Shown: in pieces, positions 3,886-23,386 of the stretch
Numbering within the stretch: the first letter of the stretch is position 1
Layout: each line of letters begins with the position of its first letter
IMG/VR virus record: IMGVR_UViG_3300028392_000255
Coordinates: 1 to 26,772 of that record
Length of the DNA: 26,772 nucleotides
Direction: 5' to 3' (one strand)
From: a virus
Position numbers and translations under genes: made by a program
Notes under the pieces: generated by a model
What the model was told of the DNA's origin: nothing
What the model saw: the letters and a program-made list of their open reading frames with translations, nothing else
Database searches by the model: none

Positions 3886-4758
3886 TTACATTGTAACCGT
3901 TACGGTCTGTTTCCGATACCTGCTACTTACTATCTTAGGTACGGCGTTATCCCATTTAATTGAATGATGAAATCTTCTATTCTTTTCACCCATCGTTCTC
4001 ACACTCACACACGACGGAGCCATCATCACCGTATAAAAGGATTTCACATAAGTGCCAGCATCTAAATAGATTTCAGTAAGCCCACCTTTAGCCTTTTGAG
4101 TCTGAACCTGTGTAAGTTGAAGATTCATTACGGTAAAAAATAAATCGCCCAACGCTCCAGAGACTACATAAGCATTAACATCTTCGTTAATTCGCCCAAT
4201 AAATTTAATTGGCTTGTTCATATCCATAAAGAAACTGTTCATCGCTTTACGCAGGATCCCTTTACCGATAGACCCATCTATCCCGCCAATATGATCTCCG
4301 CCTTGACTCATCGCCACCGTTACGGCTCCGGTATTTTTTAAAAGCGTAATCATCGCTTCGACTATCGCGTCAAAATTATGAATTGTTTTAGATCTAATAA
4401 CCCCATCTTCTACATATCTATGGCAAAAGGTCGTGTAATCATCATCCAGTTGAAGCATATAATCCAGCCCCATTGTTTTAGCGATTCTTTGAGATTCATT
4501 ACGGGCATAAGTAACCCCACGAAGGCTTTGAAGCGAATCCCCGATATCAAAAGTTTGAGACGCAGCTTTTTTATCGAACTGAATAACCTTATCTTTTCCA
4601 AAGGTATTACGGTACTCATCGGCAGTTTTATCTTCGCTGTCGATAATGAAATAAATCTTTCCCGTATATCCGGATTTTTTTAAGGCTTGAACAGTTTTAA
4701 CATTATCCGGCCTACCGTGGGTCAAAATGAATACGGCGAAATTATTCACTTTCTTCAT
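3886..4758 (-). CDS. TET-associated glycosyltransferase (TAGT)-like, predicted DNA-base glycosyltransferase
   Basis: 290 aa GT-A-type protein. Visible motifs: N-terminal ILTHGRPDN (11-19), YARNES (84-89), metal/nucleotide-sugar motif QLDDDYTTF (103-111), a central GRINEDVN block (about 188-195), TQKAKGGLTEIY, then GTYVKSF and RRFHH towards the C-terminus. From memory this order matches the TAGT family, predicted to add sugars to hydroxymethylated pyrimidines in phage DNA. It overlaps the upstream ParB gene by 17 nt. No TET/JBP dioxygenase, cytosine methylase or hydroxymethylase gene is in this window, so the substrate base cannot be named. A role in genome hypermodification against restriction is inference; surface glycan transfer is the alternative. 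Confidence 0.84.
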   Translation of the reverse strand: MKKVNNFAVFILTHGRPDNVKTVQALKKSGYTGKIYFIIDSEDKTADEYRNTFGKDKVIQFDKKAASQTFDIGDSLQSLRGVTYARNESQRIAKTMGLDYMLQLDDDYTTFCHRYVEDGVIRSKTIHNFDAIVEAMITLLKNTGAVTVAMSQGGDHIGGIDGSIGKGILRKAMNSFFMDMNKPIKFIGRINEDVNAYVVSGALGDLFFTVMNLQLTQVQTQKAKGGLTEIYLDAGTYVKSFYTVMMAPSCVSVRTMGEKNRRFHHSIKWDNAVPKIVSSRYRKQTVTVTM

Positions 4759-5488
4759 CTTTCATCTCGTTAATTGTCTCCACGAAGGCGGCGTACCCAT
4801 AGCGAATTGCATCATCTAAGTCGATAATTACGAGCGCGGATTTTTCCATCAACTCTTGGATTTCCGGCGTAGCGTGAGGGTAATACTCGGCGATTTTAGA
4901 ATAATTGAAAACTGTATGCCTATTGGCGGCCATAATAAGAAAATCTTGTACATCTTCGGGAAGATCAGCGGCGAGAATCTCATTTCGTAATTCTTTAGCC
5001 TTATCTTCATTAAAAAGATCACTCATTACCGGCTTATCGCCCACGATTTCATATTGAGGAAGATTTACGGTTTTCGTATAAGGGTTTTCTTCCCCCGCTT
5101 TAATATCTTCAAATTCTTTGCTTGTAAATCCCAAATCGCTTAAATCCCACCCGCGCTCATCTAATTCTTTTAATTGAGCCGCAAGTACATCATCGCCCCA
5201 TTCGGCTAGTTCAGAAGATCGATTATCAGCGAGCGCATAAGCCATCGCAGTATCGGCATCCCAATTATCAGGGCATCTTGTTATTGAGATTTCATTCCAG
5301 CCTAAAGATTTGGCGGCTTCAAGCGTTCCATTGCCGGCAATTACTACCCCGTTATGAACGACTATCGGTTTTCTTTGCCCAAACTTATTAAGGCTTGCCG
5401 AAATTGCATCAAGATTTTTTTTGCTATGCCGTCTCGCGTTGTTCGGATCTAGGTTCAGACTTTCTATCGCTACTGTTTCCAAATTCAC
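4742..5488 (-). CDS. ParB-like nuclease-domain protein paired with the glycosyltransferase
   Basis: GTG start with Shine-Dalgarno GAGG six bases upstream. Residues about 5-90 form a ParB/Spo0J N-terminal domain: DPNNARRHSKKNL, FGQRKPIVV and GNGTLEAAKSLGW (the last corresponds to the GxGxRxxA nucleotide motif). The C-terminal half (about 135-240: NPYTK, LPQYEIVGDKP, FLIMAANRHTVFNY, KIAEYY, ALVIIDLDDAI) is a separate conserved block that I recall from phage ParB proteins encoded next to DNA-modifying enzymes. No partner ParA is seen, so chromosome segregation is unlikely. It more plausibly works with the downstream glycosyltransferase in base modification or its targeting (inference). Confidence 0.88.
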   Translation of the reverse strand: MNLETVAIESLNLDPNNARRHSKKNLDAISASLNKFGQRKPIVVHNGVVIAGNGTLEAAKSLGWNEISITRCPDNWDADTAMAYALADNRSSELAEWGDDVLAAQLKELDERGWDLSDLGFTSKEFEDIKAGEENPYTKTVNLPQYEIVGDKPVMSDLFNEDKAKELRNEILAADLPEDVQDFLIMAANRHTVFNYSKIAEYYPHATPEIQELMEKSALVIIDLDDAIRYGYAAFVETINEMKDEESE

Positions 5489-5663: not shown

Positions 5664-5848
5664 TTTACCGTCTTACGCGACTCCCGTTTTTCTTTATAGG
5701 TTTTAATCTCATCCGCAAGGTAAAAAACAGTTTTCCCTTCGCGTTTTACCCATTTAATCGTTTTCCGATACTGGAGTTGTCTTAGATTATTTATGTTAAT
5801 GCCCAAATGCTCGACCACTTGGGCGCAGTTCCAGAGTTCATCTACCAA
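5660..5848 (-). CDS. Small MerR/excisionase-type helix-turn-helix protein
   Basis: 62 aa with a MerR/Xis-like winged helix: WNCAQVVEHLGININNLRQLQ (HTH), then KTIKWVKREGKTVFYLADEIKTY (wing). This is the size of AlpA/excisionase-like or MerR N-terminal domains that bind DNA. The only start giving an intact domain is TTG, 7 nt inside the end of ssb, with AAGGA about ten bases upstream. A nearby ATG is out of frame. No integrase is present, so a transcriptional role or a DNA-architecture role is likelier than excision. Confidence 0.75.
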   Translation of the reverse strand: MVDELWNCAQVVEHLGININNLRQLQYRKTIKWVKREGKTVFYLADEIKTYKEKRESRKTVK

Positions 5849-6237
5849 TTTGGCACATCCTTAGTTGCGGGAATTTCACCAAAGAATTTATCGCGCACTA
5901 CTGGAGCCTGATTCTTGGGTGATTTAGGCTTTAAGTAGAAATCAGTTCCGGAAATCTCTAATGAAGTTTTAATTTCTCCGGCTTTGTTTGTATAAGTAGA
6001 TTGAGAAAACTTACCCACGACCATAACTTTATCGCCCTTAGTCAGAGAATCGAGCACTAGGTCACTTTTAGAATTCCAAAAAGTAACTCGAAACCATATT
6101 GTCTCGCCATCTTCCCATTGACCCCCGACTTTAGATCTAGGGGTATGTGCCAGCGAAAACGATGCGAGAGTTTCTTCTTTGAATACTTTCATTTCAGGAT
6201 CAGAGCCTAAATTGCCTTCGATAATAATTTGATTCAT
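5842..6237 (-). CDS. ssb: Single-stranded DNA-binding protein
   Basis: 131 aa with an SSB OB fold: MNQIIIEGNLGSDPEMKVF at the start, WFRVTFWNSKSD (about 47-58), LTKGDKVMVVGKFSQSTY (about 65-82) and the LEISGTDFYLKP strand. It coats ssDNA during phage replication and recombination. The tail is short and ends VPNW, lacking the acidic DDDIPF tip of bacterial SSB, so it may not recruit host repair proteins in the usual way. It starts at ATG and sits between HNH and HTH genes rather than with the replication operon further right. Confidence 0.95.
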   Translation of the reverse strand: MNQIIIEGNLGSDPEMKVFKEETLASFSLAHTPRSKVGGQWEDGETIWFRVTFWNSKSDLVLDSLTKGDKVMVVGKFSQSTYTNKAGEIKTSLEISGTDFYLKPKSPKNQAPVVRDKFFGEIPATKDVPNW

Positions 6238-6268
6238 TTAATCGCCTTTCTTGATTGGATTGCTTACA

Positions 6269-6628
6269 TTACACCGATTCTACGCTTCCGTCATTTTTCA
6301 AAAGTACCCAAGAGCCATCCGGTCGAAGAAAGGGTTCAGTCTCAGGATCAGACCAACTGCTCACCATCCAGCCTTTATCGCTAGCCATCGAGGGGTTAAG
6401 GTGAATAGAGTTTGTGCCTAAATTATGGCATTTATGATGAACTTTAATTAAATTTGATGCGGAATCTTTACCGCCGCGAGATTTTAATTTTCTATGATGC
6501 AACGCCATAGATTCGAGAGCGGGGTTACCGCAAGTTTCACAGTAATGCCCCGCCCTCTCATTTACCAACTCAACGATTTCTTGTTTCAATACCAGCCAAT
6601 TTTCTGTTCGTGCATCCACGCTCCGCAA
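6269..6628 (-). CDS. HNH endonuclease-like protein
   Basis: 119 aa with an HNH nuclease core: CETC (30-33), HHRKLKSRGGKD (44-55), SNLIKVHHKCHN (58-69). This is the Cys-pair zinc site, catalytic His and metal-binding His/Asn pattern. Small HNH proteins close to terL in other phages can assist packaging cleavage; this one is about 2.7 kb upstream of terL in the same operon. The best start is uncertain: TTG as given (overlapping the SLT gene by 43 nt), or a GTG three codons in. Confidence 0.87.
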   Translation of the reverse strand: MRSVDARTENWLVLKQEIVELVNERAGHYCETCGNPALESMALHHRKLKSRGGKDSASNLIKVHHKCHNLGTNSIHLNPSMASDKGWMVSSWSDPETEPFLRPDGSWVLLKNDGSVESV

Positions 6629-11453: not shown

Positions 11454-11933
11454 TTATTTCCCAATCGCGTCGTTGATCATTTCTTCGGTGATTCCATAAT
11501 GAGCGAAATCTTTAATAACTTTATTCTTCACTTCTGAATTACGGTAGTCAAGAAGCGAACGCCTTTCGTCCGTCGTGCATCCACCCCACACCCCGTAATT
11601 TTCATTAGAAGCCGCATACCGAAGGCATCGAGCCCATATAGGGCAAGGAGCGCAGGTGAACCGGATCACATCAACATCTATGAGTTTTACAATTCCTCGT
11701 TCTTCTATTTTGTAGAAAAACTCAGTCGGAAGATTTTTACACGCCGCTTTACTCCAGTCGATTTCGGTATAAGACGGGTTTGCATAATTTTCATTAAGAG
11801 CATCTAGTTGGTCGCGGTCATAAAGCCCATCTTCGAAACGATGAATTTCGTACCTTTCAATCCATCGAAAAACTGTTCTTTGAGTCACTCTATATCGACT
11901 TGCCGCTTCATTTACCGAGATTTTGATGGACAT
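11454..11933 (-). CDS. WhiB-family Fe-S regulator with N-terminal helix-turn-helix
   Basis: 159 aa. The C-terminal part is a WhiB domain: C65 (AACKN), C94 and C97 (TCAPC), C103 (ARC) for a 4Fe-4S cluster, then GVWGG (114-118) and a basic ERR stretch. WhiB proteins bind the primary sigma factor and alter transcription in Actinobacteria. The first 45 residues (SVNEAASRYRVTQRTVFRWIERYEIHRF) add a MerR/HTH_17-type DNA-binding domain, which normal WhiB proteins lack. ATG start with GGGGG about 6 nt upstream, overlapping the nuclease gene by 22 nt. Likely the phage transcription switch; diagnostic for an actinobacterial host. Confidence 0.93.
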   Translation of the reverse strand: MSIKISVNEAASRYRVTQRTVFRWIERYEIHRFEDGLYDRDQLDALNENYANPSYTEIDWSKAACKNLPTEFFYKIEERGIVKLIDVDVIRFTCAPCPIWARCLRYAASNENYGVWGGCTTDERRSLLDYRNSEVKNKVIKDFAHYGITEEMINDAIGK

Positions 11934-15434: not shown

Positions 15435-15635
15435 ATGATCAGAGTTCAAATAAGCCTATGGAGCCTTGCCGTCGTGGTCGAGGCTGAACTCAAATACCCT
15501 GACCAGATAGACGATATTGTGAACAGGGCAGGAACCCTCTTTATGACCGGCTTGATGGCTGCCAAAAATCAAGAATTAGACATTATTCAGGGTAATTTCC
15601 TTGACCCCGATGAAGAAATAGCCGAAGAGGATTAA
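15435..15635 (+). CDS. Hypothetical protein, the only plus-strand gene
   Basis: 66 aa from an ATG with AGGA 7 nt upstream. MIRVQISLWSLAVVVEAELK, then DDIVNRAGTLFMTGLMAAK and a very acidic tail (LDPDEEIAEED). Not recognised. The frame is also open upstream, but the Shine-Dalgarno decides this start. No minus-strand ORF competes in this interval. It ends convergently, with its TAA overlapping the stop of the Ntn-hydrolase gene (TTAA). An oppositely transcribed singleton flanked by a repeated promoter motif could be a regulator. Confidence 0.68.
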   Translation: MIRVQISLWSLAVVVEAELKYPDQIDDIVNRAGTLFMTGLMAAKNQELDIIQGNFLDPDEEIAEED

Positions 15636-16165
15636 CTCTTTTTTTGCTCCATAAAGAGAAAAGGTTCAGCCGTGTAAGGATCATATTTGCTGGCAATTTT
15701 TAAAGCCCATTCCAGCGAGGCTCCGGCACTCAAAGCCCCAATCGCAAGGCTAGATCCAGACCCCACTCCATAAATTCCCGACGAGTCTAGGCTTACTGCA
15801 AAATCGTCCCCTACATCAAAAACTTCACCGGCAACCGCAATTAGAAATCCGAATCGAGTTTCTTCCTCTTTATCATCTTCTAACTTTAGGTCGTTATCCT
15901 TAAAACATTGTTTTAGGGAAGGGATTACCTTACTAATAACGAAATGATATAAATCTTTTTTATCCCCCACCGTAGGCGAAGGCGGATTCCAAATATGTTG
16001 GGCTACATCGCAATAACTAGAAAGACCGCTTCCAGCGATTATGTACTGACCCCTTTGAGAAATCTTCACCATACGGGGATGATTAAATTTTCTCGTAGCA
16101 GTCACCAAAGAATCGGCCCCAAACCTGACCCCATCTTTATCTTGAACTGCCACGATAGTTGTCAT
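15632..16165 (-). CDS. Proteasome beta/HslV-like Ntn-hydrolase
   Basis: 177 aa, about HslV size. After Met removal the chain begins TTIVAVQDKDGVRFGADSLV: Thr1 is the N-terminal nucleophile, Asp17 is in GADS, and Lys33 is in HPRMVK, exactly at the canonical proteasome numbering. A YGVGSGSS motif (131-138) corresponds to the Ser129/Gly region, followed by a helix (ASLEWALKIASKYDPY). There is no propeptide, as in HslV. It is predicted to be an active threonine peptidase of a self-compartmentalising type; no AAA+ unfoldase is nearby. The Shine-Dalgarno is weak, so coupling to the phosphoesterase is likely. Substrate unknown. Confidence 0.88.
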   Translation of the reverse strand: MTTIVAVQDKDGVRFGADSLVTATRKFNHPRMVKISQRGQYIIAGSGLSSYCDVAQHIWNPPSPTVGDKKDLYHFVISKVIPSLKQCFKDNDLKLEDDKEEETRFGFLIAVAGEVFDVGDDFAVSLDSSGIYGVGSGSSLAIGALSAGASLEWALKIASKYDPYTAEPFLFMEQKKS

Positions 16166-17188
16166 TTAATCTAACCAGACTTGATATTGAGCCGTGACTC
16201 TACCTTTTTCTGGATCAACGAAGTGTAATCTTTGAGACGGCATCCCACTAGCAGCCATCGAATCTCTTGCGTATCTGTTATCGCTTTCAGTAGAGCCAGT
16301 CCAGTAAAGGTTAAAGTTTTTCTGAATTGGTTCCTGAGCGTGACGATGGTAATGCCCTAAATAGATATCGTGGAAATCATAATCGTGCGCTCCGGCTTTC
16401 CATCTATTTGCCCCCGCAATCCAAGCCGCAGGAGAAGCAAAACCAGAACGACCCAACTCATCGCCGTGCATTAGCAAGGCTCTGTAATTGCCGACAGCCA
16501 CTTCTTGAATATCTTCTGGGCAATCTTCCCAAGTTAATCTTTTTTCATTACTTAGCATTTTCCGTGCAAACTCGTAACACATCCGGTCCACATTGTCGTT
16601 CTTTGGGACTTCCGCTCGCTTCCCGCCAATTCGCCCGTGATTTCCCCACTCAGCAACGACGGTTACTTTTTCAAAGTTAGCAAGCATTAACCGAACAAAA
16701 TCTTCTAATAATCGAGAAACAGTAGTGAATTGAGTAAATAGGCTTGAATCTATCTGCCAAAGTTGAGCAGGATAATTGAACAAACCTTCCACCATATCCC
16801 CACCAAACATAACGACGCACTCTTTAACGGGGTGATGTTGTCTTTGGAGATCAGTAAGCAAGACAATTTTGTCTGCAAACTGGAGAACCCTTTTACGCAT
16901 AATTTCAGAGTTATACGAGGTTGTAACTTTTGCTCCTTGCCAGTCCGTAGAATGAACAAGAGCCACTTCGGATTTTGCTTTTCTTTTATCTATCTTAGGA
17001 GCCGGAATAGGCGGGACTTTACCGAGGGCAAGCATCGCTTCATACGCGCCTAATTGAGTTGCTTCAACTAATTGGTCATTACGAATCTTAGCCGCGGCTA
17101 GTTGCCTTTGAGCATTGTTTAACGCTCGTTGTAAATCTTCTATTTGTTGATTTGATTCCGCTTCATTAAGTTGATCTTCAAGACTCAT
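16166..17188 (-). CDS. Calcineurin-like metallophosphoesterase (Mre11/SbcD-type)
   Basis: 340 aa from the ATG at 17188; a TTG one codon earlier is not needed. All five motifs are present: HSTDWQG (D82), GGDMVEG (D131), WGNHGR (N183, H184), MHGDE (H241) and GHYHRH (H279, H281), giving a two-metal phosphodiesterase active site. The first 45 residues form a coiled coil (NQQIEDLQRALNNAQRQLAAAK). Proteins of this type in actinophages are annotated as DNA exonucleases or phosphoesterases. Overlaps the upstream gene by 11 nt and abuts the Ntn-hydrolase gene. No SbcC/Rad50-like partner in the window. Confidence 0.92.
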   Translation of the reverse strand: MSLEDQLNEAESNQQIEDLQRALNNAQRQLAAAKIRNDQLVEATQLGAYEAMLALGKVPPIPAPKIDKRKAKSEVALVHSTDWQGAKVTTSYNSEIMRKRVLQFADKIVLLTDLQRQHHPVKECVVMFGGDMVEGLFNYPAQLWQIDSSLFTQFTTVSRLLEDFVRLMLANFEKVTVVAEWGNHGRIGGKRAEVPKNDNVDRMCYEFARKMLSNEKRLTWEDCPEDIQEVAVGNYRALLMHGDELGRSGFASPAAWIAGANRWKAGAHDYDFHDIYLGHYHRHAQEPIQKNFNLYWTGSTESDNRYARDSMAASGMPSQRLHFVDPEKGRVTAQYQVWLD

Positions 17189-21528: not shown

Positions 21529-22350
21529 TTATGACCAGTATGTAACGCGAGCATATCCAGAGCCACCAGTGCCGCCTATGTTGTTTGTTGTTACTGCTCC
21601 AGCACCTCCGCCACCTCCGCCACCGCCAGTATTTACTACTCCAGCAGTTCCAGCAGTCCCCGTACCGCCACCGCCTCCACCAGAAGGAGCGATACCAGCA
21701 GGAAATCCGGAACCTGCGCTACCACCACCACCACCACCACCAAAACCATCTATACCTATGCCGCCGTTGCTTCCCAAAGACCCCGTTGTTGTTGTAGGGC
21801 TAGAAGCAATTCCACTTCCGCCACCGCCACCTTGCGACCCTGCGCCCGGGAAAGCGCCCGAACTTGGCGAACTATATGACTGAACATTTCCTCCAGCACC
21901 TCCGCCACCTCCACCCGTTACTGCTCCAGTTCCAGCAGTAGCGCCACTACCACCACCGCAACCGCCAGACAATCCGCTGGCAGGGCTGCAATTTCCGCCT
22001 CCACCGCCACCTTTTGCTGTTGCTAACGCGCCAAAAGTTGTGTCTCCACCATTAGAACCAGATGTTGCAGCGGCACCAGTTCCTCCAGTACCTCCGTTGC
22101 CGATTGTAACGGTATAAGCAGTTCCAGCAGTGACAGCAAGCGTTTTCCTAACAATTCCGCCACCTCCGCCACCTCCACCGCCATCGCTAATATTGGCGGA
22201 ATAACTATTTGCTCCACCCCCACCACCACCGACCATAAACACTTCAACAGTCGTGCAGTTAGACGGAGTAGTGAATGTAGCAGTAGAGAGAAACTCCTGA
22301 ACCTTCTGAGTCACGCCACCACCGGCAGCTGGAATAGTTGAGGATCCCAT
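21529..22350 (-). CDS. Glycine-rich tail adhesin (copy 2)
   Basis: 273 aa. A non-glycine N-terminal segment (VTQKVQEFLSTATFTTPSNCTTVEVFMV) is followed by about 210 residues dominated by Gly runs with Ser/Thr/Ala spacers, ending SGYARVTYWS. This is the glycine-rich domain type of phage tail fibres and adhesins, likely packed polyglycine-II helices with variable loops for receptor contact. It starts MGSSTIPA, almost the same as the neighbour's MGSSVVPA, so the two genes are paralogues. Its ATG overlaps the upstream stop. Confidence 0.85.
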   Translation of the reverse strand: MGSSTIPAAGGGVTQKVQEFLSTATFTTPSNCTTVEVFMVGGGGGGANSYSANISDGGGGGGGGGIVRKTLAVTAGTAYTVTIGNGGTGGTGAAATSGSNGGDTTFGALATAKGGGGGGNCSPASGLSGGCGGGSGATAGTGAVTGGGGGGAGGNVQSYSSPSSGAFPGAGSQGGGGGSGIASSPTTTTGSLGSNGGIGIDGFGGGGGGGSAGSGFPAGIAPSGGGGGGTGTAGTAGVVNTGGGGGGGGAGAVTTNNIGGTGGSGYARVTYWS

Positions 22351-22583
22351 TACAGAGCCGCCTTTTCATCAGGAGTCATTATTTTTTTAGATATAGGTTC
22401 ATAGACCATACCGACAGGAACGCAGACATTCCACTTACGGTCATAATAATCACCTTGTTTGATATGGTCTTCTGGAACAACTTTAACGCACTCAGCGCCA
22501 GTAACTTCCTCGGCGATGTTTTGAGTATCGGCAACAATAATATTTACAATTATATCGCCATTCAAGACTGCATAGTTAGCCAT
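22350..22583 (-). CDS. Small fibre-partner protein (copy 1)
   Basis: 77 aa: NYAVLNGDIIVNIIVADTQNIAEEV, CVKVVPEDHIKQGDYYDRKW, then a C-terminal KKIMTPDEKAAL. This family (ExxVVNIIVAD...GDxYD) commonly follows tail-fibre genes. It lies between the two glycine-rich genes, 12 bp from the first and overlapping the second by one base. Probably a fibre assembly or tip protein; function not shown. Confidence 0.82.
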   Translation of the reverse strand: MANYAVLNGDIIVNIIVADTQNIAEEVTGAECVKVVPEDHIKQGDYYDRKWNVCVPVGMVYEPISKKIMTPDEKAAL

Positions 22584-22594
22584 TCAGATTCTCC

Positions 22595-23386
22595 TTAGTA
22601 ATAAATATAAACAACACCAGCACCACCGGCGCCAGCAACAGTTCCACCACCACCACCACCACCACCGGTTCCACCTGCACCACCCGTAGTTGTTACCGCG
22701 TTATTGCCTGCTCCGGTGTATCCTGCACCACCGCCGCCAGCAAATACTGCTCCAGTTCCACCGACTCCACCAAGTGCAGAACCACCTGCTCCACCAGTAT
22801 TTGCTGAATTAGCAGCACCACCACCACCGCCAGTACCAGTACCATTGCCACCTAATGCTCCGTTTTGTCCAAACGAACCGCCACCACCGCCACCTGAAAT
22901 AGCAAATCCACCAGCACCACCTGCACCGGAAGATTGTGCGCTTCCTCCATAACCACCTGTTGCTGATAAATAATTATTGGAAGGAACTGGAGCAAATGCA
23001 CTTGCTCCACCCACATTCCCTCCTGAGCCTGAACCACCAGTTCCCGGGTATCCAGCACCACCTCCCATGCTTAGGATGCCGCCTGCTCCTCCGGCACAAG
23101 CAATCAAAGAACCAACAGCAGAATAACCATTGCTTGCTCCAACTGTCACTGCCGTTGGACTTGCTACCCAACCTTGTTGAACTGCACCACCACCACCAGC
23201 ACCGCCGGCCGAAGCGCTTCCACCGCTACCTCCACCTCCAACTGCAATGACATAGACCTGTGTAACAGGAAATGACAAACCAGTTGTGGTTGTTGTGTAA
23301 GTATTGCGAAGTGTTAATCCAAGAGGAACACCTATTGTGAGTGCGGGTGTACTGGAACTAGAGGCAGGTACTACCGATGAACCCAT
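22595..23386 (-). CDS. Glycine-rich tail adhesin (copy 1)
   Basis: 263 aa. N-terminus MGSSVVPASSSSTPALTIGV and a strand pair (LRNTYTTTTTGLSFPVTQVYVIAV) are followed by about 200 residues of Gly/Ala/Ser repeats (GGGGG tracts with Asn, Tyr, Phe loops), ending GAGVVYIYY. It has the same architecture as the downstream copy, but the Gly-rich body is diverged, as expected if the loops face receptor selection. Probable receptor-binding part of the tail. Confidence 0.85.
   Translation of the reverse strand: MGSSVVPASSSSTPALTIGVPLGLTLRNTYTTTTTGLSFPVTQVYVIAVGGGGSGGSASAGGAGGGGAVQQGWVASPTAVTVGASNGYSAVGSLIACAGGAGGILSMGGGAGYPGTGGSGSGGNVGGASAFAPVPSNNYLSATGGYGGSAQSSGAGGAGGFAISGGGGGGSFGQNGALGGNGTGTGGGGGAANSANTGGAGGSALGGVGGTGAVFAGGGGAGYTGAGNNAVTTTGGAGGTGGGGGGGGTVAGAGGAGVVYIYY

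Follow-up and report, generated by a model that had tools for sequence, protein, structure and literature searches.

Conserved active site and accessory genomic position of a BPH-like, proteasome-type threonine peptidase encoded by actinophages

Introduction

Proteasome homologues of phages have already been published. A survey of 2021 treated PPH and AAH, reported no phage specific to Actinobacteria among the carriers of AAH and offered no clue to the function of these proteins; in the same work the group I homologues are derived from HslV-like, self-assembling double rings, and connectase serves as an example of how specific the proteasome fold can become (PMC8665760). A long acidic pore loop is distinctive of BPH, the beta-proteobacterial proteasome homologue, and sets it apart from HslV. 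Purified BPH was inert on casein and on a wide range of peptides, and a specialised substrate range has been suggested for it (PMC5777263).

The present study concerns a 26,772-base IMG/VR virus record (the window, by which we mean this whole stretch) with nearly all genes on the minus strand. One of its products shares with BPH (5ovs, 5ovt, 5ovu) the absence of a propeptide, the long acidic loop, T1/D17/K33 and the GSG motif, and BPH represents both its top fold score and its best PDB sequence match; as for BPH, there is no known unfoldase. It differs from BPH by an identity of only ~24%, by its occurrence in actinophages rather than on bacterial chromosomes, and in that its rings are a prediction, those of BPH being tetradecameric double rings. 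With HslV/ClpQ it has length, fold (Z 16.7), active site and GSG in common, but the pore cluster is acidic here and basic in HslV, and no HslU was present in the phage records examined. It resembles AAH and PPH in being a phage-encoded group I homologue without an unfoldase (PMC8665760), and it matches PHROG 1040. Homologues in DSL-LC01, in the Arthrobacter phages Hum25 and Pitbull and in the Microbacterium phage Pumpernickel, annotated as 'protease' or 'HslV', are 29–32% identical to the window protein and have other genomic surroundings; the three of them that were checked have the same active-site residues.

Results

The peptidase gene and its putative active site

15632–16165, minus strand: proteasome-like (BPH/HslV-type) N-terminal threonine peptidase of 177 amino acids, assigned from PHROG 1040, the AlphaFold2 model, the Z scores for BPH and HslV, and T1/D17/K33
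16064–16162, minus strand: codons of the putative catalytic triad, mature Thr1 to Lys33 (T1, D17, K33), from translation and conservation
15854–15895, minus strand: acidic pore-loop codons, residues 91–104 counting Met, located in the model between helix H2 (ending at 90) and a strand (starting at 105)

The open reading frame is read from an ATG at 16165 down to 15632, and the plus strand of this region is full of stops. A preliminary description of the DNA had proposed a proteasome/HslV-like threonine peptidase here without a propeptide, of HslV-like length and with T1, D17 and K33 in place after removal of Met, and had not given the strand. The translation agrees in each of these points. The N-terminus reads M-TTIVAVQ, so that threonine is the second codon, no residues stand ahead of Met-Thr1 and a propeptide is absent; the 177 residues correspond to the length of HslV; and T1, D17 and K33 fall at the canonical proteasome positions once Met is removed. 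The GSGS motif that had been pointed out is seen as GSG at mature positions 134–136, in register with the corresponding motif of BPH and HslV. The pair D161-x-x-T164 has the same spacing as proteasome Asp166/Ser169.

Conservation and spread of the family

The window protein was aligned with 80 IMG/VR homologues (81 rows). T1 is present in 79 of 79 non-gap rows, D17 in 80 of 80, and K33 as well as G46 in all 81; S135 and D161 are each found in 80 of the 81 proteins and T164 in 79. The earlier proposal to look for a loss of Thr1 or Lys33 among relatives is answered by this alignment: T1, D17 and K33 are invariant where present and none of the 80 homologues has lost Thr1 or Lys33. All three residues also occur in 31/31 rows of a diverse set that comprises phage proteins 26–50% identical, Streptomyces copies, BPH and HslV.

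Narrow patterns retrieved 143 relatives from IMG/VR and broader patterns at least 552, with more than 500 viral contigs encoding a relative. The median dN/dS of the family amounts to ~0.08 (272 pairs), which indicates strong purifying selection and, together with the more than 500 contigs, argues against a chance reading frame.

Bacterial genome contigs yielded no relative when scanned with a profile of the phage family. A second scan, seeded by a Streptomyces plasmid homologue, returned six actinobacterial chromosomal copies, of which those tested fall outside the clade of the window. The phage profile had a single strong match in 396 Actinomycetota genomes, namely the Streptomyces genome used as centre, and for this reason no recent host donor is identified.

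Predicted fold

AlphaFold2, supplied with an alignment of 27 family proteins, gave a model with a pLDDT of 88.4 and a pTM of 0.86, in which residues 23–31 alone are poorly predicted and helix H2 is predicted at residues 72–90. As modelled, the peptidase has the proteasome beta fold. BPH and HslV are the top Foldseek matches. By VIA-align, Thiobacillus BPH (5ovt) comes first (Z 17.0, rmsd 3.0 over 160 residues, 24% identity), T. brucei HslV reaches Z 16.7, and HslV, 20S beta subunits and Anbu all lie within about one Z unit of BPH; at 17.0 versus 16.7, BPH and HslV are therefore tied by fold alone. Z was at least 8 for all 1000 compared chains (best 17.0, BPH). The structural comparison that the preliminary description had recommended thus leads to proteasome-type structures (BPH, HslV) and not to another fold, and fold and conserved active site together back the original assignment. 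Several dozen phage proteins in BFVD are similar, and some of these carry the annotation HslV or proteasome subunit.

Placement among the proteasome homologues

PHROG 1040 ('peptidase HslV family') matches residues 1–172 with E=2.1e-23. The Pfam model PF00227 (Proteasome) scores 15.5 bits, below its gathering score of 22.4 bits; this score is a detection threshold and not a defining structural feature, so that the superfamily assignment stands on fold and active site. HslV proper was rejected, as the equivalog TIGR03692 gives 17.0 bits and thereby stays far under its cut-off of 157.75 bits. A host-type PrcB was likewise rejected, on account of the missing propeptide and of the bacterial 20S beta model TIGR03690, which had no match at E<=1. 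PPH was dismissed since its members have ~140 amino acids and lack H2, in contrast to 177 residues with a predicted H2. The sole convincing match of a single-sequence PDB search was Cupriavidus BPH (E=9e-6). In 81/81 proteins the pore loop contains 5–7 Asp/Glu residues (mean 6.4) and has a net charge of -2 to -4 (mean -3.5).

In the phylogenetic tree, a single clade (support 100/100) unites the Streptomyces and Actinomadura copies with proteins from Moorella, Geobacillus, Ochrobactrum, Vibrio and Salmonella phages; it is probably AAH, the cluster for which OC.661151 and WP_035979212 are the references. The window clade is placed outside this candidate AAH clade, with ct2KA10 and Cm-BPH nearby. 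Cm-BPH stands beside it with a support of 93/81, or 86/75 with more rows, on a branch of ~3 changes per site; because of this very long branch the placement is a lead only, and a greater closeness to BPH than to HslV is not firm. Of the likeness to HslV claimed beforehand, fold, length and active site hold, but the protein fails the HslV equivalog, its sequence comes closest to BPH in the PDB search and its loop is acidic. We therefore call it BPH-like and place it among the group I homologues, without assigning it to BPH itself.

Two genomic sites

16166–17188, minus strand: calcineurin-like phosphoesterase/exonuclease directly upstream of the peptidase (phrog_284 exonuclease, E=9e-48; the relative in DSL-LC01 is annotated as calcineurin-like phosphoesterase)
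15435–15635, plus strand: convergent 66-codon gene, the other boundary of the slot, kept in relatives with and without peptidase
5842–6628, minus strand: HNH endonuclease (6269–6628) and SSB (5842–6237), the peptidase site in 41 relatives; no gene lies between the two here

The stop codon of the phosphoesterase (16166–16168) abuts the ATG of the peptidase (16163–16165) without a gap. A link between both genes had been claimed, and their abutting arrangement in the window is in agreement with it. The link is not obligatory, though: in about half of the sampled relatives the peptidase gene lies at another place, and many phages encode the phosphoesterase but no peptidase. The peptidase is found beside the phosphoesterase in 39 of 93 distinct relatives and between HNH and SSB in 41, so that the idea of a peptidase tied to the phosphoesterase was given up. 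When the peptidase occupies the other site, the HNH–SSB gap measures 25–42 bases. The phosphoesterase-adjacent copies constitute essentially one clade, which is consistent with one relocation.

Loci fetched by the phosphoesterase itself were added for a survey of the slot between phosphoesterase and 66-codon gene. A peptidase fills it in 67 loci, where the median gap is 551 bases, and is missing from it in 50; these counts are not frequencies, as some contigs were counted twice and many loci were chosen for holding a peptidase. The median gap of a slot without peptidase is 54 bases if none was found nearby and 173 bases if a peptidase is encoded elsewhere. A homologue is held somewhere by 9 of the 11 phosphoesterase-bearing records of at least 30 kb. 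The peptidase is accessory cargo in this slot.

The slot occupants are 26–83% identical to the window peptidase, with the triad intact in those aligned. At 16 loci with occupants less than 60% identical, the phosphoesterase is still 85–88% identical. The phosphoesterase-seeded search is biased towards loci in which that gene is very similar, and those genomes are divergent in other genes too (WhiB, 37–49%), so that the pattern shows mosaic exchange, but the peptidase need not be evolving rapidly.

Several loci deserve separate mention. Divergent proteasome-like proteins, 26–51% identical to the window peptidase and with T1, D17 and K33 intact where aligned, are encoded at L195, L182, L209, L171 and L178, mostly behind the phosphoesterase, and at L210 near HNH/SSB. 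Ochrobactrum phage OC has a proteasome homologue between an HNH endonuclease and a phosphatase (L154:2410-4379); the likeness to both neighbour types described here may be a coincidence. In DSL-LC01 a regulator gene of the WhiB family comes immediately after the HslV-like gene (L081:10001-10954). The 66-codon gene of the window (15435–15635, plus strand) is oriented opposite to its neighbours, runs head-on to the end of the peptidase gene and has no Pfam match. Anti-phage defence models gave no match, the window contains no tRNA, and a promoter scan near the peptidase gene stayed below chance level.

Host and search for an unfoldase

11454–11933, minus strand: HTH-WhiB fusion that points to an actinobacterial host (Pfam Whib at 46.4 bits against a cut-off of 23.6; HTH_28; phrog_472 WhiB)

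WhiB is used as a marker of actinophages (PMC6802176, PMC10202952). Judged by this gene, the host is actinobacterial, as the preliminary description had assumed, and WhiB is also found in 14/16 distinct related loci of more than 15 kb. The position of the WhiB domain behind an N-terminal helix-turn-helix looks unusual as an architecture. DSL-LC01, an actinophage from lake water, encodes a distantly related peptidase, phosphoesterase and terminase; this and the kind of literature on such phages, not metadata of the window, suggest a freshwater habitat.

The earlier statement that no unfoldase is encoded was extended from the window to 19 related viral records, mostly fragments. AAA_2 was detected in 0/19 related records and AAA in 0/20 records including the window, and both searches were positive in all 14 controls. 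Unfolding might be supplied by a gene elsewhere in these fragmentary phage genomes, by ClpX of the host or by some other ATPase.

Discussion

We favour, with a probability of roughly 0.55, the interpretation that the protein is a BPH-like, self-compartmentalising and ATP-independent threonine peptidase used during infection, whereby activity, rings and ATP independence are presumed. It is probably catalytically active. Host methionine aminopeptidase would strip Met and expose Thr1 as the nucleophile. Lys33 and Asp17 would then constitute the proton relay to Thr1, and Ser135, probably along with D161 and T164, would shape the site. The subunits presumably assemble to a homo-oligomeric double ring with a pore lined by the acidic loops, which may stand in for an unfoldase-controlled gate. 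Such a chamber would probably act, with no need of ATP, on host or phage proteins that are unfolded, oxidised or flexible in some other way, and the peptidase would represent accessory cargo of the infection phase and not a part of the virion. A BPH-like build is, however, no guarantee of proteolysis, given that purified BPH is inert (PMC5777263).

This inertness in standard assays makes a narrow substrate range the main rival, in which the enzyme processes, for example, a protein of the phage head or tail or a single defence protein of the host and is not a general degradative chamber. We regard this as possible, though rather unlikely. The suggested specialised range of BPH (PMC5777263) and the precedent of connectase (PMC8665760) speak in its favour, as do alleles 26–83% identical to the window at one slot, which would be expected if targets differ; the gene is located, however, among early/replication-type genes outside the structural module, and many relatives that share its neighbours lack it, so that a role in virion maturation is unlikely. 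The inert BPH proteins (PMC5777263) could also point to a relic devoid of catalysis or to a binding module in which only the fold is kept. Strong purifying selection and an active site that stays unchanged in proteins otherwise 26–30% identical make this very improbable.

Two further interpretations involve host machinery. Cooperation with a host AAA+ unfoldase, either ClpX or the proteasomal ARC/Mpa, would follow the example of HslV, the best-known relative, which needs HslU. In most of the sampled Actinomycetota the HslU model indeed cross-matches an AAA+ protein, probably ClpX, with a score under the cut-off. Genuine HslU was above cut-off in only 1/198 Actinomycetota genomes and was not found in the viral records, so that a partnership with HslU is unlikely, and the long acidic pore loop is that of the unfoldase-free BPH. 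ARC and Mpa dock on an alpha-type subunit. No such subunit was seen, and PrcB is present in only 88/198 genomes; overall we consider the dependence on a host unfoldase doubtful. The idea of the preliminary description that the peptidase replaces or poisons the rings of the host 20S proteasome found no support and has in our view hardly any likelihood. It could build on the common fold and on the PrcB of those 88 genomes, but hosts without PrcB are common and would lack the target, the identity to 20S beta subunits is ~20%, the PrcB model is unmatched, and group I homologues go back to HslV-like double rings that assemble by themselves (PMC8665760).

Phage proteasome homologues (PMC8665760) and the 'protease' annotations in cultured Arthrobacter and Microbacterium phages were known before. 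New are the size of the lineage (>500 viral contigs), its actinophage setting, the BPH-like loop and the swap-like genomic behaviour at two sites. As a speculation that we consider improbable, the slot might be a swap site in freshwater actinophages for highly divergent, active proteasome-like proteases, an unfoldase-free weapon of the phage that has diversified to hit host targets, for instance defence proteins. Occupied and unoccupied slots provide natural pairs with and without the gene and, with the many divergent alleles, make the function testable. If active, the peptidase would strengthen the case that an ATPase is dispensable for some chambers of the proteasome type.

Note that the window has two other conspicuous regions. 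A TET-associated glycosyltransferase (Pfam TAGT, 115.6 bits; 3886–4758, minus strand) adjoins a ParB-like gene (4742–5488) near the terminase and is a possible hint at hypermodification of DNA bases. Two very glycine-rich proteins are encoded in the tail region (21529–23386, minus strand).
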